Shown piece after piece: positions 5,925-58,900 of a stretch of 64,000 nucleotides of DNA (position 1 is the stretch's first letter; each line of letters starts with the position of its first letter). Source of the DNA: an uncultured Selenomonadaceae bacterium (GTDB lineage Bacteria > Bacillota > Negativicutes > Selenomonadales > Selenomonadaceae). The notes under the pieces are model-generated. The model saw only the letters and a program-made list of their open reading frames with translations. It had not been told where the DNA came from and did no database searches. The stretch covers positions 62,001-126,000 of the forward strand of contig CAJOFR010000006.1 in the NCBI GenBank assembly GCA_905234195.1. The letters are read 5' to 3'. The translations under genes and the position numbers were made by a program.

Positions 5925-6962
5925 TCAAGGATAAATTGGCACGAAGTCCAGCGCGATATCTTCTTCAAGACCCGCCGCGATATTGAAATTTTGAACGGCC
6001 TGCCCCGCCGCGCCCTTAACCAAATTGTCAATCGCCGAAAGCACGATGACCCGCCCCGTTCGTTCGTCAATATGCCAGGCAATGTCGCAATAATTCGAGC
6101 CGCGAACAAATTTTGTTTCGGGGTAAGCGTCGCGCCCGAGCACGCGGATAAATTTTTCGTTGCCGTACATTTTTTGAAAGGCGGCGTCAATAGTTCCTGC
6201 AGTGCAATTCTCTTTTATGTTCGCGTAGCACGTCGCCAAAATCCCGCGAGACATCGGAACCAAATGCGGCGTGAAGTTCAGAATAATTTTTTCTCCGCCA
6301 ATGTCTTCGAGTGCCTGTTCAATTTCCGGCGTGTGGCGGTGGTGAGCAACATTGTACGCCTTGAAATTGTCGTACAGCTCCGGAAAATGATTGCCGAGCT
6401 TAGGACTTCTGCCCGCGCCGCTGACTCCGGATTTCGCGTCGATAATAATCGTGTTGACGTCGATTAAATGATGACGGACGAGGGGAGCAAGCGCAAGAAT
6501 TGAAGCCGTCGTGAAACAACCCGCGTTGCCGATAATTTTTGCGTTGCGAATTTCTTCGCGGTAAATTTCGGCAAGACCATAGACGCGCGGCGCATTTTTG
6601 TGCGTGTGTGGAACGTTGTACCAGCTTTCGTAAATGCTCGTGTCGCTGAAACGATAATCCGCGCCCAAATCAATAATCCTTACCGGCAACGACTCCAGCT
6701 TTTTCCCGACGTCCATTGCGTGCCCGTGCGGCAGGGCGATAAAAATAAAATCACTGTCGCCGCCGATTTTTTCAATGTCGTTTAAACTTTCGAGCGTCTG
6801 ATTATAAATCCCGTTCAAGTGCGGATAAATTTCGGAAAATTTTTTTCCGGTGTGGCTCTCCGAAGTTATATGAGTGATTTCAACTTGCGGGTGCCTGTAT
6901 AAAATCGACAGGAGTTCCGCGCCCGCGTACCCCGTCGCCCCAATTATGCTGACCTTTAACAA
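5925..6962 (-). CDS. argC: N-acetyl-gamma-glutamyl-phosphate reductase
   Basis: A 345-residue ArgC. The N-terminal dinucleotide fold opens LKVSIIGATGYAGAELLSIL. The catalytic cysteine sits in the motif IIGNAGCFTTASILAL (about residue 149). His in the PHLVPMSRGI stretch completes the active site. It reduces N-acetyl-glutamyl phosphate to the semialdehyde in arginine synthesis. The TTG start lies 10 bases after GGAGG. The usual argJ, argB and argD partners are absent, and argG/argH sit 28 kb away, so the arginine genes are dispersed in this genome. A small membrane-protein gene lies directly upstream. Confidence 0.95.
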   Translation of the reverse strand: MLKVSIIGATGYAGAELLSILYRHPQVEITHITSESHTGKKFSEIYPHLNGIYNQTLESLNDIEKIGGDSDFIFIALPHGHAMDVGKKLESLPVRIIDLGADYRFSDTSIYESWYNVPHTHKNAPRVYGLAEIYREEIRNAKIIGNAGCFTTASILALAPLVRHHLIDVNTIIIDAKSGVSGAGRSPKLGNHFPELYDNFKAYNVAHHRHTPEIEQALEDIGGEKIILNFTPHLVPMSRGILATCYANIKENCTAGTIDAAFQKMYGNEKFIRVLGRDAYPETKFVRGSNYCDIAWHIDERTGRVIVLSAIDNLVKGAAGQAVQNFNIAAGLEEDIALDFVPIYP

Positions 6963-8244: not shown

Positions 8245-9657
8245 TTAAATCGTGTGGAGCTGAATCGCGCTTGTTCCGCCCGCGCCGTATTTAATTCCGC
8301 TCGTCACAACTGTAATATCGCCTTCCTTGACGAAACCGCGCTCAAGCGAAACTTTCGTCACGTAGTCGATCATTTCTTCCGGATTGAGCCACTGCACGTC
8401 AGGCACGACAAAAACGCCCCAACGCAAATTCAAATGACGCGCAACCATCTGATTCGGAGCAAACGCAATTATCACCGCCTGCGGACGATATTTTGAAACA
8501 ATCTTCGTCGTGTAGCCGGACTTTGTCGGCGTGATAATGGCCGCCGCCGAAAGTTCGTAAGCAAGCTGAACTGTGGCGTGGGCAATCGCGTCCGTGTGAG
8601 AATATTTTCTGTGCACGCCCTTATTTTCAAAAATAACTTTGTATTCAAGAGAGGCCTCTATCCTCTGCGCAATCCTGCTCATCGTAGCGACGGCCTCGAC
8701 GGGATATTTTCCGCTTGCAGTTTCGCCGCTCAACATGATCGCATCTGCGCCGTCCAAAATCGCGTTGCCAACGTCCGAAACTTCAGCACGAGTCGGGCGC
8801 GGATTAGTAGTCATGCTCTCCAACATTTGCGTCGCCACGATAACGGGCTTGCCGGCGTCGTTGCACTTTTTGATAATTTCTTTTTGGATAATCGGCACGT
8901 CCTCTGCGGGAATTTCTACGCCGAGATCCCCGCGCGCAACCATAATCCCGTCCGACGCGGCAATAATGTCATCGATATTTTGAACGCCGGCGAGATTTTC
9001 AATCTTCGGGATAATTTCCATGTGCCCGCCGTGACGAGCAACCAGCTTGCGAATCGACTCAACGTCCGCTGCGCGCTGAATGAAACTTGCCGCGATAAAA
9101 TCCATGTCGTTTTCAATTCCGAAGATAATATCTTTCTCGTCCTGTTCCGAAATCGCGGGCAAACCCAGTTCGACGCCGGGAGCCGCAACGCGCTTGCGTG
9201 TGCTCATCTTGCCGGAATTTAAAATCGTCGTGACAATATCCTTGCCCTCTATCGCGTCAACCTTCAGCTCAACGAGCCCGTCACTCAAAAGAAGTTTATC
9301 GCCCGGCTTGACTTCGGTATAAAGCAGTTTGTGATTAACGGAGACGTGAGTTTCATCGCCAGGCGCGTCGTCGTTCGTCAGCGTGAATTTATTCCCCGCG
9401 ACGAGCTGAACTTCACCGGCGGCAAATTCGCCGAGACGCATTTCAGGTCCCTTCGTGTCGAGCACGAGAGAGATGACGCGCCCTAATTTTTTTGCGGCGG
9501 CTTTCACGGCGTCGATTCTTTTCTTTTGTTCCTCGTGGGTGCCGTGCGAAAAATTAAAGCGCGCGCAGTTCATTCCGTTTTCAATAAGTTTTTCGACAAC
9601 GCCCGGGGCGTCGGTGGCGGGACCTTGAGTGCAAATAATTTTTGTTTTCTTTAACAT
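8245..9657 (-). CDS. pyk: Pyruvate kinase
   Basis: A 470-residue pyruvate kinase without the extra C-terminal phosphohistidine domain found in Bacillus. The barrel includes TKIICTQGPAT, NFSHG, the catalytic lysine region FIPKIEN (here EIIPKIENLAG), and the signature GIMVARGDLGVEIP followed by Q-K-IIKKCN. The regulatory C-terminal domain runs from about residue 350. It makes pyruvate and ATP from phosphoenolpyruvate in glycolysis. The ATG at 9657 has only a weak site of its own, but it overlaps the end of a short reading frame (9651-9686) that has a near-perfect ribosome site. A TATAAT box (9732-9727) marks the probable promoter. Confidence 0.97.
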   Translation of the reverse strand: MLKKTKIICTQGPATDAPGVVEKLIENGMNCARFNFSHGTHEEQKKRIDAVKAAAKKLGRVISLVLDTKGPEMRLGEFAAGEVQLVAGNKFTLTNDDAPGDETHVSVNHKLLYTEVKPGDKLLLSDGLVELKVDAIEGKDIVTTILNSGKMSTRKRVAAPGVELGLPAISEQDEKDIIFGIENDMDFIAASFIQRAADVESIRKLVARHGGHMEIIPKIENLAGVQNIDDIIAASDGIMVARGDLGVEIPAEDVPIIQKEIIKKCNDAGKPVIVATQMLESMTTNPRPTRAEVSDVGNAILDGADAIMLSGETASGKYPVEAVATMSRIAQRIEASLEYKVIFENKGVHRKYSHTDAIAHATVQLAYELSAAAIITPTKSGYTTKIVSKYRPQAVIIAFAPNQMVARHLNLRWGVFVVPDVQWLNPEEMIDYVTKVSLERGFVKEGDITVVTSGIKYGAGGTSAIQLHTI

Positions 9658-9686
9658 CGCTTTTCGTCACTGAAAACTTTCAGCAA
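9651..9686 (-). CDS. Putative 11-residue leader peptide coupled to pyk
   Basis: Read on the minus strand, AAAAGGAGGTG is followed at 8 bases by TTG and a short frame MLKVFSDEKRC. Its TAA (9653-9651) overlaps the pyk start (ATGTTAA). pyk has no comparable ribosome site near its own ATG, so coupled re-initiation is a reasonable reading. The same stretch could instead form a small CTGAA/TTCAG hairpin that shortens the distance from the site to the pyk ATG. No protein evidence; inferred from layout. Confidence 0.4.
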   Translation of the reverse strand: MLKVFSDEKRC

Positions 9687-9787
9687 CGATTACACCTCCT
9701 TTTATTTTTCAGCGAAAGACTTTTTCATTATAATGATATATTTTTTGCGCGGTATTGGCAATAACTTTTTGTATTTTTGGAAAATTT

Positions 9788-9840
9788 TTTTCGGCAAAAA
9801 AATTTCGCACCCGCGTGTAAAAAAACACAAGGCGCGATTT
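9788..9840 (-). terminator. Terminator after phoH
   Basis: Directly after the phoH stop, CGCGCCTTGTG (minus strand, 9835-9825) and CACGCGGGTGCG (9817-9806) can pair imperfectly around a T-rich loop. AAATTTTTTTGCC follows. Confidence 0.5.
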
Positions 9841-9841
9841 T

Positions 9842-10807
9842 TTATTTTTTGCGATAATTATCATACGCATTGACAATCCGCGAAACAACATCGTGACGAA
9901 CGACGTCAGTTGAATCCAATTTTGAAATACCAATCCCCTTGACGCCGGACAAAATTTCGACAGCTTCGGCGAGACCGGACTGAACGCCGGACGGCAAATC
10001 AATTTGGCTCAAATCGCCGGTGACCGCCATCCTCGACCCGAAACCAAGCCGCGTCAGAAACATTTTCATTTGCTTGCTCGTGGTATTCTGCGCCTCGTCA
10101 AGAATGATAAATGCATCGCTAAGAGTTCGCCCGCGCATGTAAGCGAGCGGCGCAATTTCAATCACACCGCGACTAAAAAATTTTTGATACATATCAAATC
10201 CGAAAATTTCCTGCAGTGCGTCGTAGAGCGGGCGGAGATACGGGTCAACCTTTTCTTGCATATCGCCTGGCAAAAATCCGAGCCGTTCCCCTGCCTCGAC
10301 GGCGGGACGAGTCAATATAATTTTCTTAACTTCGCGAATACGAAGATAATATGCTGCCATAGCGACGGCAAGAAAAGTTTTTCCGGTTCCGGCGGGACCA
10401 ATCCCAAAAGTTATGACGTGTTGCCGGATTGTTTCGATATAATTTTGCTGACCGAGACTTTTCGTGTGGATATGCGTTCCGTTCGCCGTAACGATAATCG
10501 TTTCGCTAAAAATTTTATGCAGATCCTTCGCGCGGTCGGACTTGATAATTTTAATCGCGGCAACGACGTCGTTCAAGGTAATAAAACTTCCTGCGCGGTA
10601 GATTCGCTGGAGTTCAAGGATAACTTTCGCCGCGCGATCGACTTCGGAAAAATCTCCGTGCAGTTCGATAAAATTTCCGCGACTTACAACACGGCAATTA
10701 AAATTATTGTCCAGCGTTTGCAAAAATTCGTCACGTTCTCCCAAAATGGAGCGCGTTTCCTCGACGTCGGCAAACTCAATTTTTTTCGTCGTCAAATTAT
10801 TTATCAT
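9842..10807 (-). CDS. phoH: PhoH-family ATPase
   Basis: A 321-residue PhoH-like protein. An N-terminal single-strand nucleic-acid-binding segment (about 1-110, with RVVSRGNFIELHGD) precedes the P-loop ATPase. Walker A is GPAGTGKTFLA (about residue 137) and Walker B is DAFIILDEAQNTT. The SKQMKMFLTRLGFGSRM and TGDLSQIDLP segments are diagnostic of PhoH. Members are cytoplasmic and are implicated in RNA metabolism next to ybeY in many genomes; ybeY is not adjacent here. The start overlaps the csaB stop by 11 bases, so it is translated with csaB. Confidence 0.93.
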   Translation of the reverse strand: MINNLTTKKIEFADVEETRSILGERDEFLQTLDNNFNCRVVSRGNFIELHGDFSEVDRAAKVILELQRIYRAGSFITLNDVVAAIKIIKSDRAKDLHKIFSETIIVTANGTHIHTKSLGQQNYIETIRQHVITFGIGPAGTGKTFLAVAMAAYYLRIREVKKIILTRPAVEAGERLGFLPGDMQEKVDPYLRPLYDALQEIFGFDMYQKFFSRGVIEIAPLAYMRGRTLSDAFIILDEAQNTTSKQMKMFLTRLGFGSRMAVTGDLSQIDLPSGVQSGLAEAVEILSGVKGIGISKLDSTDVVRHDVVSRIVNAYDNYRKK

Positions 10808-45464: not shown

Positions 45465-48332
45465 TCAGTCATCCAATTTTATGAGCAAAAATTCTTCTTC
45501 TTCCGCGCTAAGTTCTCCGCCCTGCAACATTTTTTGAGCAACGGTCGCGGATTTTTCAAACCTTGCGTCGACGCCGAAGGGGTAAAGCGAATCCAAATCG
45601 TTGAGGAGCTTTTGCGCCTCGTTGAAGGCGGATTGTTCAAGGGGATTGGGATAGCGGCGGTCGCAGAGCAAACCAATCGCCAAGAGGCAATTATTAATTT
45701 CGGTCGAGTTCATTTTTTTGGAGCGAATAATTTTGCACAGGTCGCTGACAATTTTACTCTTGCGAACTGAAGCGACAGTCGGTTCGCCGTCGCTGAGACG
45801 ATACGCCACGCCGAGAGCATGCGCGGAATTTTGGACGAGACTTTTTTTGCCGTTCGCGATGAGGTTGCAATCTTTTTTGAACTCAAGATAAATCCAATCG
45901 ACTGAAGTTTTCGTCATGGCATGCGTGTAAAGATTGGCGAGGCGCAGTTTGCTGTACCCGTGCAAATTTTCGAGTTGGGCGAGATCATTTTCACTGCCGC
46001 ACATATTCAGCGTATAAACCGCCTGAATTTTTGTGTTGACGCTGTAGCCTTTCAAGTCGAAGCCGTGAAAATGAATTTCCCTGTCAAGTTGTTGCATGCA
46101 AAAATTTGCGAGTCTTTTTTTCTGGGACGCCGTCCAATTTTTTCCAATCTTCCTGCCGATAATTATAAAGTTTGTTTTAAAAATTTCGTTGCTCAAATTT
46201 TCGTTGTCCTTAAAAATTTTCAAAAAGGTTTCGGCAAAATCGTTGGGGTTATCCGCCGTCCAAAGATTTTGCTTTTCTCTTCTAATCAGCTCGGAATATT
46301 TTACGAAATTATTTTTATCGCCACGCTTTTGTGCGGAATCAGCCTTCTTGCAAAATTCGAGAATCCTGTTAAGAACTTGCACGGGATTTAAATTTTTGAG
46401 GGGTTTAGTCGTTACGATTTTTGGTTTAGCAATTTCTTCGACGGGCTTATCAATTTTCGTGGCGATGGCAATTTCGGTGGTGCCGTCGTCGATTTTCTCA
46501 AGCCCCTGCGGATCTTTGCAGGTATAGGCGTCCATGCGAATGATTCTTTGTTCGTTCATAGTGACGGTGAAGGCGGCGAAGTTTTCATTTTTGGAGCGCG
46601 AATATTTTTCGGGGAAGACGATATTTCCTCCGGCGATAATCGTATAACTTCCGTCGTTATTGCGGCGGGCGATAGGGACATTAATTTTGTTTGTGCCCGA
46701 AGGCAATTTAAATCCGGTGAAAATTTCTGAACGGTGGGGGAGCGTCGTGCCGGTCTTGATAATTTCTTCGTAGCGGTTGCCGTGCGTGACGAGGTACAAG
46801 CTGTCCGGGAGAATCGAATGACCGGGACGAATGTAAGGCATTGGATTTTTAGCGGGAGGCGCGGAATTTTTTCCGGCTTGTTTGGCGGAGGAAGTCAGCG
46901 GCAAATTTTTCATGGCGGGATCTTTGGCAAGAGCCTCGTCGTATTTGTGCAGGAAGTAGTGATAGACAGCCGCGCCGCGAGCAACTGCCTGGTCGGGGTC
47001 CAGCGCGACAATGGGATCAAATCCGAAAAATTCTTTCAGGCGATTAATGACCATATAAAATCTTGACATCCCGCCGTTCATAATTACGGCGTCGATTTTA
47101 AAATTTTCGGTGCCGAGTTTATCGGAGCACTTTTTGAGCACGTCGAGGATAGGGAAAATAATATTGAGCGTGCCGAATTTTTTAGCGACTTCGTCCAAAT
47201 TTTTGAAGTCGTCGAATTTAAAATCGTTGCCCATAAATTTATTCCAGACGTCTTCGAGGGCTTGAGTGGTAAAATTATCGTCGTAGGCGTAGCCGGTCGC
47301 GCCGATATTCCCGCCGACGGGGTAGGTGTCGTCGTCGTCGCCCCAAGCGTCGTCGTCCTGCCGCCCGCCGCCAAATTCGTCGCTGTTATCCATGCTGACT
47401 TTTATTTTGAGTTCTTCGGCGTAGTTCAAGAGTTGCGGCATAACTCCGGCTTCTTCGCGTTTAATCTTCTGAAAAATTTCGGGATGACTGCGATATTTTT
47501 CAAGGTACCTTACGAACATTTCTTTCGCGAGCGCGGCATCAAAATCGTCACCGCCGAGAAGGGTATAACGATTAATCGCCAAATCTTCCACGTTCAAAAC
47601 TTCGGGGGCGTCCTTGCGCCTGGAAATTTTATGCAACGTTATATCGAGAGTTCCCCCGCCCAAATCGAAGACCATAACAATTTTTTGCGTGCTCAAGTCC
47701 AAAATTTTATCGGAAATTTCTCCGTTATGAACTTGATTTATAAAATCGTAAATGACTGCCTGCGGTTCGGGCAAAAGAATCGAACGCATAGAGCCGTTGG
47801 CGTTTCTGATTTTAATTCCCGCAAGTTCGGCGGCCTTGAGTGTGGCTTGACACATAATGCTATCGAAATTTGCGGGGACTGTTATGACGGCGTCGTCAAT
47901 TTCTTTTTGGTGATAAGTACGCGCCGCGCTTTTCAGCATGTATTCCAAAATGCGCGCAGAAATTTGCGCGGGGGTTTTGTCGGGGATATTCGAGGAAAGA
48001 CCTTCGGCGAAGGCGTTCCCCATTTGGCTTTTGATAGACTTTGCGACGAGGTGAGGACGAAGAGAATATCTGCTCTTCGCGAAATTCCCGACGACAGGCG
48101 CAAAATTTTTTTCTTCGTTGTAGTAGACGCAGCTGGGCAAGGTATTTTCTTTTCGCATTGAAAATCTTGTCTCGCCGCCGGCATTAAACATATCAACGGC
48201 GCGATCAATTCCAATGACTTTGCTGACGATATTTCCGTTGGCGCGCGGAGTTATCGTTGCCAAGACTGAATTTGTCGTGCCCAAGTCTATGCCTACGCAA
48301 AGATCGTTGTGATTTTCTCCATTAATCAGCAT
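45465..48332 (-). CDS. Divergent Hsp70-family chaperone with long C-terminal extension
   Basis: A 955-residue Hsp70. The ATPase domain (1-460) has phosphate-1 CVGIDLGTTNS (12-22), phosphate-2 VMVFDLGGGTLDITL (219-233) and adenosine motif DAVIMNGGMSRFY (414-426). It is broken by an acidic Gly/Asp insert at 314-352. The substrate-binding beta domain (about 510-640) includes KTGTTLPHRSEIF. Beyond the usual lid, a helical extension (650-955) has many Trp, Leu and Asn and no DnaK-like EEVD end. The start has GGAGG. It is not the housekeeping DnaK (no dnaJ or grpE/hrcA context), but a GrpE-like gene precedes it. It is probably a dedicated chaperone. Confidence 0.9.
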   Translation of the reverse strand: MLINGENHNDLCVGIDLGTTNSVLATITPRANGNIVSKVIGIDRAVDMFNAGGETRFSMRKENTLPSCVYYNEEKNFAPVVGNFAKSRYSLRPHLVAKSIKSQMGNAFAEGLSSNIPDKTPAQISARILEYMLKSAARTYHQKEIDDAVITVPANFDSIMCQATLKAAELAGIKIRNANGSMRSILLPEPQAVIYDFINQVHNGEISDKILDLSTQKIVMVFDLGGGTLDITLHKISRRKDAPEVLNVEDLAINRYTLLGGDDFDAALAKEMFVRYLEKYRSHPEIFQKIKREEAGVMPQLLNYAEELKIKVSMDNSDEFGGGRQDDDAWGDDDDTYPVGGNIGATGYAYDDNFTTQALEDVWNKFMGNDFKFDDFKNLDEVAKKFGTLNIIFPILDVLKKCSDKLGTENFKIDAVIMNGGMSRFYMVINRLKEFFGFDPIVALDPDQAVARGAAVYHYFLHKYDEALAKDPAMKNLPLTSSAKQAGKNSAPPAKNPMPYIRPGHSILPDSLYLVTHGNRYEEIIKTGTTLPHRSEIFTGFKLPSGTNKINVPIARRNNDGSYTIIAGGNIVFPEKYSRSKNENFAAFTVTMNEQRIIRMDAYTCKDPQGLEKIDDGTTEIAIATKIDKPVEEIAKPKIVTTKPLKNLNPVQVLNRILEFCKKADSAQKRGDKNNFVKYSELIRREKQNLWTADNPNDFAETFLKIFKDNENLSNEIFKTNFIIIGRKIGKNWTASQKKRLANFCMQQLDREIHFHGFDLKGYSVNTKIQAVYTLNMCGSENDLAQLENLHGYSKLRLANLYTHAMTKTSVDWIYLEFKKDCNLIANGKKSLVQNSAHALGVAYRLSDGEPTVASVRKSKIVSDLCKIIRSKKMNSTEINNCLLAIGLLCDRRYPNPLEQSAFNEAQKLLNDLDSLYPFGVDARFEKSATVAQKMLQGGELSAEEEEFLLIKLDD

Positions 48333-48368
48333 AATAAAACCTCCTTTAAAATTTTTAAAAGTCGTTGG

Positions 48369-49484
48369 TTATTCGGCGGCGTCCTCCTCAATTTCTTTAA
48401 GGCGGGGGCGCGCAATTTGAATATCTTTATTTTTGTAGAACCAGCCGGGCGAAAGAACTTTGACTTGTTTAATTTCTTCGGCGTCGACGTACGGCGAACC
48501 TTCGTAGTCACAAGATTCTATCTCGTTAAATTTCATGGAGTGGACGGAGCCGAGTTTCATAATCGGATTAATTTCGTGGTCGCGGACAAATTTTGTAAGG
48601 TTGTCGACGAGAATGAACAGCCCGCTAATTTCCGGCGGCAAGTTCACATTTTGTTTGCGGAGCTTGCGGACACCGTCACGGACATTAATTATTGCGTCTA
48701 AAATGCAACCGTACTTTTCGGAGTTTAGGCGCGAAAAAAAATCTGTCATTTCGTTTTGGTGAATTTCCTCAAGGCGTGATTCAAAGTCGTCCTGCAAATC
48801 CTTCAACATCATTTCGTTTCTCTTCAAAGTATTTTCGAGCTGTTCGATTTTATTTTGAGCCGCGCTTTGATTTTTATTTTTCCCCTGCGCGCCGCAAATC
48901 TCCTTCAAAAAATCATTCATATCGTAGCGAAGATATTGCGCGTAAACATTTCCGAACTTAGCAAAATTTTCGAGGTCGCCATGAATATCCAGCTCCGGAT
49001 ATTTCGTGTAGAGCATCAAGCAAAAAATTCTACTCTTGACCTTGCGATAATCGGGGTTGCCCTTCATTTTCATGTACGCCTCAAAATCTTCGCTATCCTT
49101 CGATACAAGTGCTTTAACAAAGGCGTCGACGGCGGCAGATGCCCAAATGAAAAGCTCTTCGCGGCTGTCGAAGTCCGTGATATTGTGGAAACGAAAAACT
49201 CTAATCACTTCGTTTGCCGTCACGTCGTAGCCATATTTTGTCCGCAACTTTTCTACGCAACGATTGACGCTGAGAAATTTTTCCTTGCAGAGAATTTGGA
49301 AGAGGCGGCTTTCATAAACGTAATCGACGTCAGCCATATTTGGCAGGCTCTTCAATCTCCGGTTGGTGCCGCTGTGAACAATTTCGATAAACTTTTTAAT
49401 ATCCGGGTTATCGACGTCCAATTCGGTTATCTCCCTCAATTTTTGAATCGGCAAATCTTTTATGGCGTCACGAATCGTTTGCAT
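48369..49484 (-). CDS. GrpE-like nucleotide-exchange factor with novel N-terminal domain
   Basis: A 371-residue protein. Residues 1-195 form an all-helical domain I do not recognise (MQTIRDAIKDLPIQKLREIT, VDYVYESRLFQILCKEKFLS). A coiled coil spans about 209-245 (KIEQLENTLKRNEMMLKDLQ). Residues 250-371 resemble the GrpE four-helix and beta-wing part: a helix with ILDAIINVRDGVRKL, then VRDHEINPIMKLGSVHS and a closing VKVLSPGWFYKNKDIQIARP. GrpE drives ADP release from Hsp70. The gene lies 36 bases before the divergent Hsp70, so a cognate pair is inferred. The ATG has TAGGAGG. The GrpE call rests on visual similarity. Confidence 0.72.
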   Translation of the reverse strand: MQTIRDAIKDLPIQKLREITELDVDNPDIKKFIEIVHSGTNRRLKSLPNMADVDYVYESRLFQILCKEKFLSVNRCVEKLRTKYGYDVTANEVIRVFRFHNITDFDSREELFIWASAAVDAFVKALVSKDSEDFEAYMKMKGNPDYRKVKSRIFCLMLYTKYPELDIHGDLENFAKFGNVYAQYLRYDMNDFLKEICGAQGKNKNQSAAQNKIEQLENTLKRNEMMLKDLQDDFESRLEEIHQNEMTDFFSRLNSEKYGCILDAIINVRDGVRKLRKQNVNLPPEISGLFILVDNLTKFVRDHEINPIMKLGSVHSMKFNEIESCDYEGSPYVDAEEIKQVKVLSPGWFYKNKDIQIARPRLKEIEEDAAE

Positions 49485-49511
49485 GGTAATCCTCCTAAAA
49501 TTTTATAAAAG

Positions 49512-50612
49512 TTAAATTTCAAACGGCTCAAAATTTTTTGGAAAGATAAAATTCGTTCGGGAATCGGGTTCGTTCATCAAAACTTGCTCGATTGTTCGCG
49601 GGTTGTAAGTTCTGTCGGGCGGGCTGTGCACGACGATACAAATTTTTGGATTTATTTTCCGGACGAAGTTTGCGACGGATTGAAAGTCATCGTGTAGCGA
49701 AAAACTTTTGCGAATAATTTCAAACCGTTTGTAACGCGGCGGGGGTTCCGTCGAAAAAACTACGCAGGGTTTGTCGGCGAAAAATTCCAGCGGGCGAATG
49801 CGCTCGTTGATAATGGGAATGTGCAGTTCCTCGAAACAGTGCACTAACTTCATTATCTGCGCGTCGATAAAAATTTCTACGTCCGGCAAAAATTTATTAA
49901 TCATGGTCGCCAACTCAATGCCCTTGCTTATCTGATTAATCTGGAAGTAAATTTTTTTGCCGAAACTGATTGAGCGGCGAATGTGGAAGAGAATTTTTTG
50001 TATAGCGGCGTCGTTCGTCCGGTAGCTTGAGTGTTTGGCGTGCAGTCCGCAAATAATCAGTACGTCAATATCAACATCGGGAAGGATAGCGGCTCCGACA
50101 AGTTGCGTCGAAAAAGTTGAGTAGTCGCCGGTATAAAGCAACCGCCGCCCGCCGAAATTAAAAAGCGTCATCATTGCGCCTGGAATGTGCCCCGCCTGGT
50201 GGAAACTCACGGAAATTTCGGGCAAAGGAATTTCCTGCAGGAAGGCGACGCGAAAAATTTTCTCCTGCTCGGCGGCGGATAATCTGTTGCCGATTTGCAG
50301 ACGGGTAATTTGCCAAGTCAAGTCCGTCATGTAAACATTCGCGCGCTCGTTCAGTTTCAAAAAATCGGGCAGGGCGGCGACGTGGTCAAGGTGAGCGTGC
50401 GAAATAAAAACGTGCGAAATTTGGTGGAAGTCCTGCAAATAAGGCGTCTGCAAAAGAGCATTAAACTGCGGCGAAAAATTTACTCCGTCAGATCTTCCGC
50501 AACCACAATCCAAAAGAAAATTCGTCGTGCCGATTTTCAGGTAGTAGCAGTTCGCGCCGACGTTTTGCGCGCCGTCGAGAGCCATGAAAATAATTTTATC
50601 GTTTGTCTTCAA
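49512..50612 (-). CDS. Beta-CASP-like MBL-fold metallo-hydrolase
   Basis: A 366-residue metallo-beta-lactamase-fold protein. It has the zinc motif HAHLDH (72-77), His142 in GHIPGA, Asp163 in LYTGDY, then an insert (about 185-320) with LIICGLHAKHSSYR and a last ligand His329 in VVHSPPD. This order matches beta-CASP nucleases such as CPSF73 and RNase J, and it may therefore act on RNA. It could also be a different MBL hydrolase. The TTG start follows AGGTG. It is the first gene of the unit with the GrpE-like and Hsp70 genes, 27 bases before the former. Confidence 0.8.
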   Translation of the reverse strand: MKTNDKIIFMALDGAQNVGANCYYLKIGTTNFLLDCGCGRSDGVNFSPQFNALLQTPYLQDFHQISHVFISHAHLDHVAALPDFLKLNERANVYMTDLTWQITRLQIGNRLSAAEQEKIFRVAFLQEIPLPEISVSFHQAGHIPGAMMTLFNFGGRRLLYTGDYSTFSTQLVGAAILPDVDIDVLIICGLHAKHSSYRTNDAAIQKILFHIRRSISFGKKIYFQINQISKGIELATMINKFLPDVEIFIDAQIMKLVHCFEELHIPIINERIRPLEFFADKPCVVFSTEPPPRYKRFEIIRKSFSLHDDFQSVANFVRKINPKICIVVHSPPDRTYNPRTIEQVLMNEPDSRTNFIFPKNFEPFEI

Positions 50613-50640: not shown

Positions 50641-50673
50641 TACCCCTCCCGCGCGCAGGAGGGGCAGTTTTTT
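50641..50673. terminator. GC hairpin between jag and the MBL gene
   Basis: CCCCTCC (50643-50649) and GGAGGGG (50658-50664) enclose CGCGCGCA. A T8 run follows on the plus strand, while the minus strand has only a mixed TAATTTT tail. It lies 33 bases after the jag stop (50697). It probably ends the rpmH-jag transcript. Confidence 0.6.
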
Positions 50674-56994: not shown

Positions 56995-57831
56995 GTGAAA
57001 AAATATCGTGACGGTTTATTCAGAGATTATTTCAGCGACAAGCGACGGCTGTTGAGTTTGTGCAACGCTCTCACCGGAGAAGACTCGGCAGACCCGAATG
57101 AACTTGTGGTGAATACTTTGGACGGGGTTTTCTTTGACGAATTGAAGAATGATTTATCGTGCATATATCGCGGAAAATTTTTGGTGATAATTGAACATCA
57201 GAGCACGATTAACGAAAATATGCCGTTGAGGATTTTTCTTTATGCGGCGGAACTTTTCAAACAGCACGTTGAGTCTTTCAAGGGGCAAATCTATCTTGGC
57301 GGGAGAGTTATTTTGCCGACACCGGAGTTTTTTGTTTTCTACAACGGCGACAGGAAAGAGTTTGAACAGCGGGAAATGCGTCTTTCGGATTCTTTTTTGG
57401 ACAACAGGAATTTTTTGGAAGTTGTCGTTAAAGTTTACAACATAAACGAGGGAATGAACGGGGATTTAATTTCAAAATCCGAGCCGCTGAATAATTATTG
57501 CACCTTTGTTAATTGCGTCAAACAAAATCTGAAAATGGGGTTGAGCCTCGAATACGCCATAGCGGAGACGTTCAAATTTTGTCAAGAGAATAATATTATG
57601 GCGGAGTATCTTGACGGGAGAAGAAAGGAGCTGGTGAGCATGTTGGGTTTGGAATATGATCCCGAAGAGGCGCGGAAGGCTTTTATTAACTACGGCATAC
57701 AACAGGGAATAGGAATCGGAAGAGAACAAGGAATTGAAATCGGAAAGGAGGAAAAAACAATCGACTTCGTGAGTAAAATGTTGCAAGAAAATATCTCGAT
57801 TGAAACAATTTCAAAAATCAGCAAATTTTGA
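56995..57831 (+). CDS. Rpn-family PD-(D/E)XK nuclease, altered C terminus
   Basis: A 278-residue protein of the Rpn/PDDEXK_2 family (recombination-promoting nuclease or putative transposase). It opens KKYRDGLFRDYFSDKRRLLS and has VNTLDGVFFDELKNDLSCIY and FLVIIEHQSTINENMPLRIF (the D...ExQ catalytic pattern), then RILPTPEFFVFYNG-like strand region. A helical tail has one GIGIGREQ unit and ends ISKISKF. The neighbour fragment shows the likely original ending SGWSEEEILKSLK, so this copy has lost it. The start is GTG 56995. It overlaps nothing and sits 0 bases after the phosphoesterase stop. Confidence 0.88.
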   Translation: MKKYRDGLFRDYFSDKRRLLSLCNALTGEDSADPNELVVNTLDGVFFDELKNDLSCIYRGKFLVIIEHQSTINENMPLRIFLYAAELFKQHVESFKGQIYLGGRVILPTPEFFVFYNGDRKEFEQREMRLSDSFLDNRNFLEVVVKVYNINEGMNGDLISKSEPLNNYCTFVNCVKQNLKMGLSLEYAIAETFKFCQENNIMAEYLDGRRKELVSMLGLEYDPEEARKAFINYGIQQGIGIGREQGIEIGKEEKTIDFVSKMLQENISIETISKISKF

Positions 57832-57858: not shown

Positions 57859-58177
57859 GTGATAGGTATGTTAGCTTTGGAATATGATCCCGAAGAGGCG
57901 CGAAAAGCTTTTATTAATTACGGCATACAACAGGGAATAGGAATTGGAAGAGAACAGGGAATAGGAATCGGAAGAGAACAGGGAATAGGAATCGGAAGAG
58001 AACAAGGAATAGGAATCGGAAGAGAACAGGGAATTGAAATCGGAAAGGAGGAAAAAACAATCGACTTCGTGAGTAAAATGTTGCAAGAAAATATCTCGAT
58101 TGAAACAATTTCAAAAATCAGCGGCTGGAGCGAAGAAGAAATTTTGAAATCCTTGAAGAATAATTGGGGGAAATTTT
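57859..58177 (+). pseudogene. Duplicated 3' tail of the Rpn-type nuclease
   Basis: Bases 57867-58122 repeat the end of the preceding gene (57640-57823) almost exactly, starting at LALEYDPEEARKAFINYG. They differ by 72 extra bases (three more 24-base GIGIGREQ units) and by keeping the family-like ending KISGWSEEEILKSLKNN. There is no nuclease domain and the frame runs on into rluB. It is most simply a leftover from recombination between two Rpn genes, not a functional gene. A GTG at 57859 opens the frame, with no good ribosome site. Confidence 0.8.
57934..58029 (+). repeat. Four 24-bp GIGIGREQ repeats
   Basis: GGAATAGGAATYGGAAGAGA with ACAR repeats four times (57934-57957, 57958-57981, 57982-58005, 58006-58029). 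The parent gene has one unit (57712-57735). The units are identical except for single substitutions, consistent with replication slippage. Confidence 0.95.
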
Positions 58178-58900
58178 TTGGCAGAACGTTTGCAGAAAAT
58201 AATCAGTCGCGCAGGTTTGATGTCGCGGAGGGCGGCGGAAAAATTTATCGTCGAAGGGCGCGTGACTGTCGACGGAAAAATTATTTCGGAGCTTGGCGCG
58301 CAGGCTGATCCTCAAAAAAATAAAATTTGCGTAGACGGGCAAGAGCTGACCTTCGGCGCAGAGAAAGTTTATTTGCTTTTGAACAAGCCGCGCGGTTACG
58401 TCTCGACGGCGAAGGACGAACGCGGGCGGCGGACGGTTTTGGATTTGGTTGCGGAAATTTCTGCGCGCGTCTACCCCGTCGGGCGGCTGGATTTAAATTC
58501 GGAAGGGCTGTTGCTTTTGACGAACGACGGCGAACTCATGAACGCACTGTTGCACCCGAAATTTAAAATCGAGAAAACTTATCGTGCGAAAATTTTTGGC
58601 GAACTCACCGAAAAAAAATTAAATCTCCTGCGCGCCGGGATTGAACTTGACGACGGCTTGACGGCTCCCGCTGAAATTTTTTTAATCGGCGCGGGAAAAA
58701 ATTCTACGACGGTCGAAATCACGATTCATGAGGGGCGCAATCGGCAAATTCGTCGAATGTTCGCGGCAGTCGGCTGTGAAGTAAAAAGATTGACGCGCAT
58801 AAAATTTGCCGGCTTGACTTTGGAGGGCGTGAAGGTCGGAAAATTTCGGCAGCTGACTCCCGAAGAGATTTTCCGGCTCCGTAAACTGACAACAAATTAA
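58178..58900 (+). CDS. rluB: Ribosomal large subunit pseudouridine synthase B
   Basis: A 240-residue RsuA/RluB-family enzyme. The N-terminal S4 domain opens AERLQKIISRAGLMSRRAAE. The catalytic domain has KPRGYVSTAKDERGRRTVLD, the active-site Asp in VYPVGRLDLNSEGLLLLTND, and HEGRNRQIRRMFAAVGCEV. It makes pseudouridine near position 2605 of 23S rRNA. The TTG start is 7 bases after GGGGG. It begins within the frame of the nuclease-tail pseudogene, so that recombination ended right beside it. Confidence 0.95.
   Translation: MAERLQKIISRAGLMSRRAAEKFIVEGRVTVDGKIISELGAQADPQKNKICVDGQELTFGAEKVYLLLNKPRGYVSTAKDERGRRTVLDLVAEISARVYPVGRLDLNSEGLLLLTNDGELMNALLHPKFKIEKTYRAKIFGELTEKKLNLLRAGIELDDGLTAPAEIFLIGAGKNSTTVEITIHEGRNRQIRRMFAAVGCEVKRLTRIKFAGLTLEGVKVGKFRQLTPEEIFRLRKLTTN

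Follow-up and report, generated by a model that had tools for sequence, protein, structure and literature searches.

A conserved three-gene cassette of a beta-CASP-type hydrolase, a GrpE-like protein and a divergent Hsp70

The window analysed here is a 64,000-nucleotide stretch of contig CAJOFR010000006.1 from an uncultured Selenomonadaceae bacterium, and three adjacent genes within it encode a metallo-beta-lactamase (MBL)-fold hydrolase, a GrpE-like protein and a divergent Hsp70. An earlier note on this DNA had described these genes as lying on one strand with gaps of 27 and 36 bases, and reading of the open reading frames (ORFs) bears this out, all three being open on the minus strand. Individual GGAGG sites, which the note had assigned to every gene, precede the GrpE-like and Hsp70 genes; the MBL gene has only a weaker aggtg before its TTG start. 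Profile searches, protein by protein, agree with the family assignments (HSP70, E 5.6e-37; Lactamase_B_2, E 1.1e-11; GrpE, E 9.7e-4, below its cut-off). The genes and their parts are as follows.

49512..50612, minus strand: MBL-fold hydrolase of beta-CASP lineage, 366 aa, TTG start
50382..50399, minus strand: HxHxDH metal-binding motif, residues 72-77, invariant in 49/49
50049..50051, minus strand: Cys188, aligned with the motif-A Glu of beta-CASP proteins, invariant in 49/49
48369..49484, minus strand: GrpE-like protein, 371 aa
48897..49421, minus strand: new all-helical N-domain, residues about 22-196, fast diverging
48390..48875, minus strand: GrpE-like part, residues 204-365 (long helix, two helices, beta domain)
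45465..48332, minus strand: divergent Hsp70, 955 aa
46938..48305, minus strand: nucleotide-binding domain (NBD), residues 10-465, ATPase residues kept
47328..47384, minus strand: acidic insert, residues 317-335, with Trp330
46467..46823, minus strand: beta part of the substrate-binding domain (SBD-beta), residues 504-622
45468..46388, minus strand: C-terminal run of 15 helices, residues about 649-955

The three proteins of the cassette

The largest protein belongs to the Hsp70 superfamily, with an NBD that carries the ATPase residues and is followed by SBD-beta; residues 9-625 of the predicted model superpose on DnaK (4b9q_D) over 462 residues with a root-mean-square deviation of 3.3. The ATPase residues that we checked are invariant in 59 of 59 aligned Hsp70 proteins, the site is intact at the level of sequence, and mean pairwise identity is 0.69 and 0.68 for the two parts of the NBD. 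Scores stay below the equivalog cut-offs of both DnaK (123 bits against 648) and HscA (131 against 709). The acidic insert reported in the ATPase domain is present, at about residues 317-335 relative to DnaK, a narrower stretch than the 314-352 first given; it is mostly of low confidence in the model, and its W330 is invariant in the 59 aligned proteins. A helical extension of about 300 residues without a DnaK tail had also been claimed, and the model does show 15 consecutive helices replacing lid and tail, a run that we read, from the prediction, as an alpha-solenoid. Compared with canonical DnaK, the cassette protein further has a long low-confidence linker and, immediately ahead of the residues aligned with DnaK IINEP, 8 inserted residues, at a place which we take to be near the J-domain contacts.

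For the GrpE-like protein, the predicted structure agrees with the earlier description of a GrpE-like C-terminus behind a new helical N-terminal domain: the C-terminal part has the long helix, dimer helices and beta domain in GrpE order, and the N-domain, at residues of about 22-196, is all-helical. In sequence, the Pfam GrpE gathering score is not reached (19.3 against 25.8 bits), and hhalign of the C-part against 30 canonical GrpE proteins gives a probability of 5%. The cassette thus shares NBD, SBD-beta and the GrpE-type element order with canonical DnaK-GrpE, whereas its exchange factor has a new N-domain and no dnaJ accompanies it. The N-domain diverges fast, at a mean distance 2.6 times that of the NBD. 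Stand-alone copies of it lie between the MBL and GrpE-like genes at three loci of the survey described below (L068:14958-15833, L075:8741-9574 and L078:684-1523), with a differing C-terminus that is alike among the three.

The solved chains closest to the MBL protein by profile are INTS11 (E 8.5e-35) and CPSF73 (E 1.9e-34), and the single protein matches CPSF73 at E 1.1e-20. With these endoribonucleases and archaeal aCPSF1 it shares the MBL core, the metal ligands (H72, H74, D76, H77, H142 and D163) and the histidines of motifs B and C (H307 and H329), all conserved in 49 of 49 proteins. It differs from them in motif A, where the CPSF73 Glu (IIESTY) aligns with Cys188 (IICGLH), and in a shortened cap and a total length of 366 aa. 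The three beta-CASP proteins used for reference, which come from Deinococcus, Herpetosiphon and Halomontanus, have the motif-A Glu and also the cap segment with SGM..GG that is absent here. H191 and H194 are nearly invariant in the cassette proteins (47/49 and 46/49). Because the metal ligands and motif B and C histidines are kept and motif A and cap altered, these residues identify the protein as a CPSF73/INTS11-type beta-CASP derivative for which RNA cleavage is plausible. Its second NCBIfam match is Cas14, the beta-CASP nuclease of type VII CRISPR (70.4 bits against a cut-off of 800), which is also among its PDB matches; Cas14 belongs to a CRISPR system, whereas the cassette has no CRISPR gene.

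The altered residues bear on a different reading, in which the MBL protein is no nuclease: it would act as a metallo-hydrolase on some other substrate or as a binding subunit with weak catalysis, and Hsp70 and the GrpE-like protein would serve as its assembly or metal-loading chaperones. The exchange of Glu for Cys in every protein, the two nearly invariant histidines (H191 and H194) and the missing cap segment would fit such a role. However, the full conservation of metal ligands and motif B and C histidines does not, beta-CASP RNA endonucleases are the best matches by far, and, as a matter of argument, a 955-residue Hsp70 with a private exchange factor would be costly as a loader for one enzyme. 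We consider this reading unlikely.

Conservation and spread of the trio

The trio stays together in other genomes. A contig scan seeded with the GrpE-like alignment returned 71 loci, whose ORFs were assigned with profiles of the three proteins, and 64 of these have the order MBL, GrpE-like, Hsp70 on one strand. Fifty-six are plain trios, two have an extra GrpE-N gene in between, and one has its Hsp70 in two frames; at the other five an antisense ORF was picked over the GrpE-like gene, and each of these has the GrpE-like tblastn match where the gene belongs. Some of the 64 (L101, L120 and L142, for example) are cut inside an outer gene, with part of all three genes present. At each of the other seven of the 71, the contig ends right at the two genes that are left or no more than about 220 bases from them. 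Chance or local gene order, that is, a spare dnaK/grpE pair next to an unrelated hydrolase, finds nothing in its favour except that the GrpE-like protein is only weakly linked to GrpE in sequence. It is already contradicted by the single order and strand at 64 of 71 loci, in three phyla and with differing flanks (a count that rests on the GrpE-like-seeded survey, MBL or Hsp70 orphans being outside its scope), as well as by the correlated distances of all parts, and we regard it as highly improbable.

These distances were compared for eight segments at the 43 loci with all three proteins, where they correlate at r 0.78-0.93. Partial correlations removing the NBD distance were computed, with 2000 permutations, for all 43 loci, for 18 Quinella-like loci and for 21 from Clostridia; the full set contains both subsets, and nearly all pairs correlate in the Quinella-like one. 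The GrpE C-part and SBD-beta then correlate at 0.56, 0.47 and 0.55 in the three sets, with 0, 2 and 0 of the 2000 permutations as high. For the GrpE N-domain and the helical extension the values are 0.27, 0.42 and 0.36 (0, 1 and 15 permutations as high), and since these distances stay correlated after NBD removal, there are weak hints that the two new parts of the cassette meet. Extension and MBL correlate at 0.48 and 0.55, but at 0.00 in Clostridia, and docking of the solenoid on the MBL protein was therefore rejected as a general conclusion from co-divergence.

The spread of the cassette, which occurs in gut bacteria of more than one lineage, is patchy. In the Quinella-type genus of Selenomonadaceae a match was found in 40 of 66 genomes, the window's own counted, and in 9 of the 14 with completeness of 90% or more and contamination of 5% or less. 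In a phylum-wide sample of 398 genomes, the window's own was the only match at E 1e-15. Lachnospiraceae carriers include Lachnoanaerobaculum saburreum DSM 3986 and L. orale DSM 24553, and others come from Oscillospiraceae, Butyricicoccus, Anaerovibrio lipolyticus, Phascolarctobacterium, Synergistaceae, Riflebacteria and Spirochaetaceae. The trio occurs in Bacillota, Synergistota and Spirochaetota. Many carrier record titles mention ruminants or other animals. The Hsp70 tree mixes families, with Riflebacteria among Clostridia and Anaerovibrio beside Synergistaceae. Horizontal transfer of the cassette is likely, and we hold it back from a claim because the branches of this tree are long and their support low.

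This distribution bears on the interpretation in the earlier note, which as a whole is supported in part. It suggested a specialised system for quality control or ribonucleoprotein (RNP) remodelling. Spelled out, this would be a constitutive system for RNP remodelling or RNA and translation quality control: Hsp70 and its exchange factor would act on one particular RNA or ribosomal complex, stripping proteins from it or loading them, and the MBL protein would trim the RNA. The CPSF73/INTS11/aCPSF1 lineage of the MBL and the strong conservation of the NBD point that way, as do a housekeeping setting in many Quinella-type genomes and, in the window, the place of the cassette behind what we take from the ORFs to be yidC-jag. 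Yet 26 of the 66 genus genomes (many of them incomplete metagenome-assembled genomes) have no match, nor do five of the 14 good ones or 397 of the 398 sampled across the phylum; the chromosomal setting is unlike between lineages, and the GrpE-like N-domain diverges far faster than the NBD. A constitutive role of this kind is possible and, on balance, doubtful.

Neighbouring genes and defence systems

Upstream of the cassette, the window has one further candidate feature.

50641..50666, minus strand: terminator-like hairpin ahead of the MBL gene, in the interval that separates the cassette from the upstream gene (consensus match only)

The next downstream gene, a kinase of the Phos_pyr_kin family (the Pfam match belongs to a cluster mate), overlaps the end of the Hsp70 gene by 8 bases. 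G+C is unremarkable, and no RNA family reaches its Rfam gathering score within the window. The same genome has canonical dnaK and grpE on contig C2 and, on contig C15 (L083:4372-6675), a 544-residue Hsp70, ahead of which a 216-residue protein of no clear family is encoded; L059 has a pair resembling these two. Elsewhere in the window, ORFs 56995-57831 and 57859-58308 have C-terminal parts that are nearly repeats of one another, and the second holds tandem GIGREQ-type units.

When 632 flank ORFs (at least 110 aa) outside the trio were clustered, each cluster was confined to at most 4 of the 32 loci that fall outside the genus group. Within that group (39 loci) the commonest flank cluster is found in 17, a tatC cluster member in 20 of 37 loci, and TatC and UbiD Pfam matches in 9 of 128 flank proteins each; the setting of the cassette varies between lineages. 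tRNA genes abut it in 4 of 23 loci scanned and are a possible integration point.

L044:7469-7542: tRNA-Thr(CGT) adjoining the cassette
L045:7444-7517: tRNA-Thr(CGT) adjoining the cassette
L060:11870-11942: tRNA-Thr(CGT) adjoining the cassette
L137:14013-14242: three tRNAs adjoining the cassette

Two candidates were rejected. A conserved 150-nt element beside the Quinella-type cassette, considered as a structured RNA, reads as code, presumably of tatA, and an Rfam scan of seven sources returned one tRNA and nothing else. Supposed MBL remnants near tatC in cassette-free genomes are DNA matches that precede the MBL start, in over-extended 5' ORF ends, and at L220 an FtsW/RodA protein gene occupies the place of the remnant.

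The GrpE-like protein has no match in viral contigs, plasmids or phages, and a plasmid search with the MBL protein gave 13 distant beta-CASP matches only. Against PADLOC 2023 the three proteins reach E 0.0023 at best (LeoBC, with the GrpE-like protein) and otherwise 0.004-0.018, which we read as chance. Flank proteins from 12 Quinella-type loci (128 of 130, 120-900 aa) matched 103 PADLOC families at 1e-5, and a control drawn from distal parts of the contigs that carry these loci (128 of 191 proteins) matched 64; among the 25 families displayed for each, type II restriction-modification, Gabija-like and DRT names appear in the flanks and MAD, AriA and others in the control. As these tables count families rather than proteins and show 25, we neither count this as defence-island enrichment nor exclude it. 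For the 32 far loci, which had no matched control, the scan took 136 of 137 flank proteins of 110-1200 aa, with no more than three from each side, and gave 154 families at 1e-10. Of the matches examined singly, the one named 'ZorD/DpdE' is a helicase that stays under all NCBIfam cut-offs and the one named 'DpdF' is a topoisomerase III; both were rejected. A cas6 gene lies near the cassette in two loci (L128:7903-8631 and L141:6922-7668), and L127 has three copies of a 30-nt CRISPR-like repeat, at 6354, 7805 and 7876.

Other Hsp70 genes accompany the cassette or its relatives. In the Lachnospiraceae locus L129, a 776-residue Hsp70 with an internal PIN_4 domain (446-2776) lies 26 bases upstream of the MBL gene and, by its domain content, is a further coupling of Hsp70 and a nuclease-type domain; more Hsp70-type ORFs follow downstream, at 8753-10240 and from 13660. 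A different accessory GrpE and Hsp70 pair occurs in relatives at L185:7495-10031, where it is flanked by PP2C, VWA and AAA genes, and similarly at L186, L188, L189 and L190. Its GrpE ORF has 289-370 aa; the length of its Hsp70 is 485-490 aa in genomes of the genus, against 619 aa in L190.

A possible chaperone-gated hydrolase

Chaperone-based thresholding of effectors has been described, together with neighbourhoods that include HSP70 and GrpE (Kaur et al., 2020; PMC7159879). The GAP1-N2 systems of that paper likewise form a conflict-type neighbourhood with their own HSP70 and GrpE genes. Their centre is a GTPase, and the FNIII-repeat protein that goes with it is fused to DnaJ or TPR; the cassette, unlike these, has a conserved core of three genes and no J protein. 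The terms metallo-beta-lactamase, beta-CASP and MBL do not occur in the paper's main text. The GAP1-N2 GTPase was not searched for by profile; the Pfam flank tables show the 25 commonest families, and no flank gene recurs beyond 4 of the 32 far loci. The CoCoNuT paper (PMC11090510) describes an Hsp70 with HEAT-like repeats in RNase-bearing systems. This type III protein, CnuD, likewise joins Hsp70 NBD and SBD to a helical-repeat part, but it has a degenerate Walker-A-like motif and McrB/McrC homologue partners, whereas all 59 cassette Hsp70 proteins, a family that came to light through its GrpE-like partner, keep the checked ATPase residues, a distinction drawn from the published description of CnuD, with the paper's own motif left unaligned. 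Neither a published description of the trio nor a paper linking beta-CASP with Hsp70 and GrpE was found in the literature searched, which left out many subscription papers and bioRxiv.

The cassette seems to be a so far undescribed molecular machine, and possibly a switch controlling the enzyme. We infer partner binding, a hydrolase activity with its substrate, a trigger and a biological role from its make-up, and we favour, with slightly less than even confidence, an accessory self-contained module: a dedicated exchange factor would set the Hsp70, and the Hsp70 would gate the metallo-hydrolase. Hsp70 would be an active ATPase, not for general folding, and would use its SBD-beta and C-terminal solenoid to bind one constant partner, most probably the MBL hydrolase. 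The role of the GrpE-like protein would be that of a private exchange factor, its C-terminal GrpE part opening the Hsp70 nucleotide cleft and its N-domain supplying a sensing or targeting input. Binding of a trigger to the N-domain would change ADP/ATP exchange on Hsp70, and this change would release or activate the beta-CASP-derived hydrolase on nucleic acid, probably RNA, as a response to stress or conflict. A defence role is plausible; weighing against the conflict side of this module is that no link to mobile elements (plasmid, phage) or defence islands was found. A bolder form, to which we give little weight, makes the exchange factor the sensor: its fast-evolving N-domain would detect an invader or stress, and a J-protein-independent Hsp70 cycle would unleash the motif-A-Cys hydrolase.

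Hsp70 machines are usually viewed as general folders driven by J proteins. Here, in several phyla, a compact cassette couples an Hsp70 with just one exchange factor and one hydrolase, and a system of three genes makes the effect of a dedicated Hsp70 on one enzyme testable. The cassette adds an Hsp70/GrpE example to chaperone-controlled effector systems and, to the beta-CASP family, a variant with a naturally occurring motif-A cysteine.

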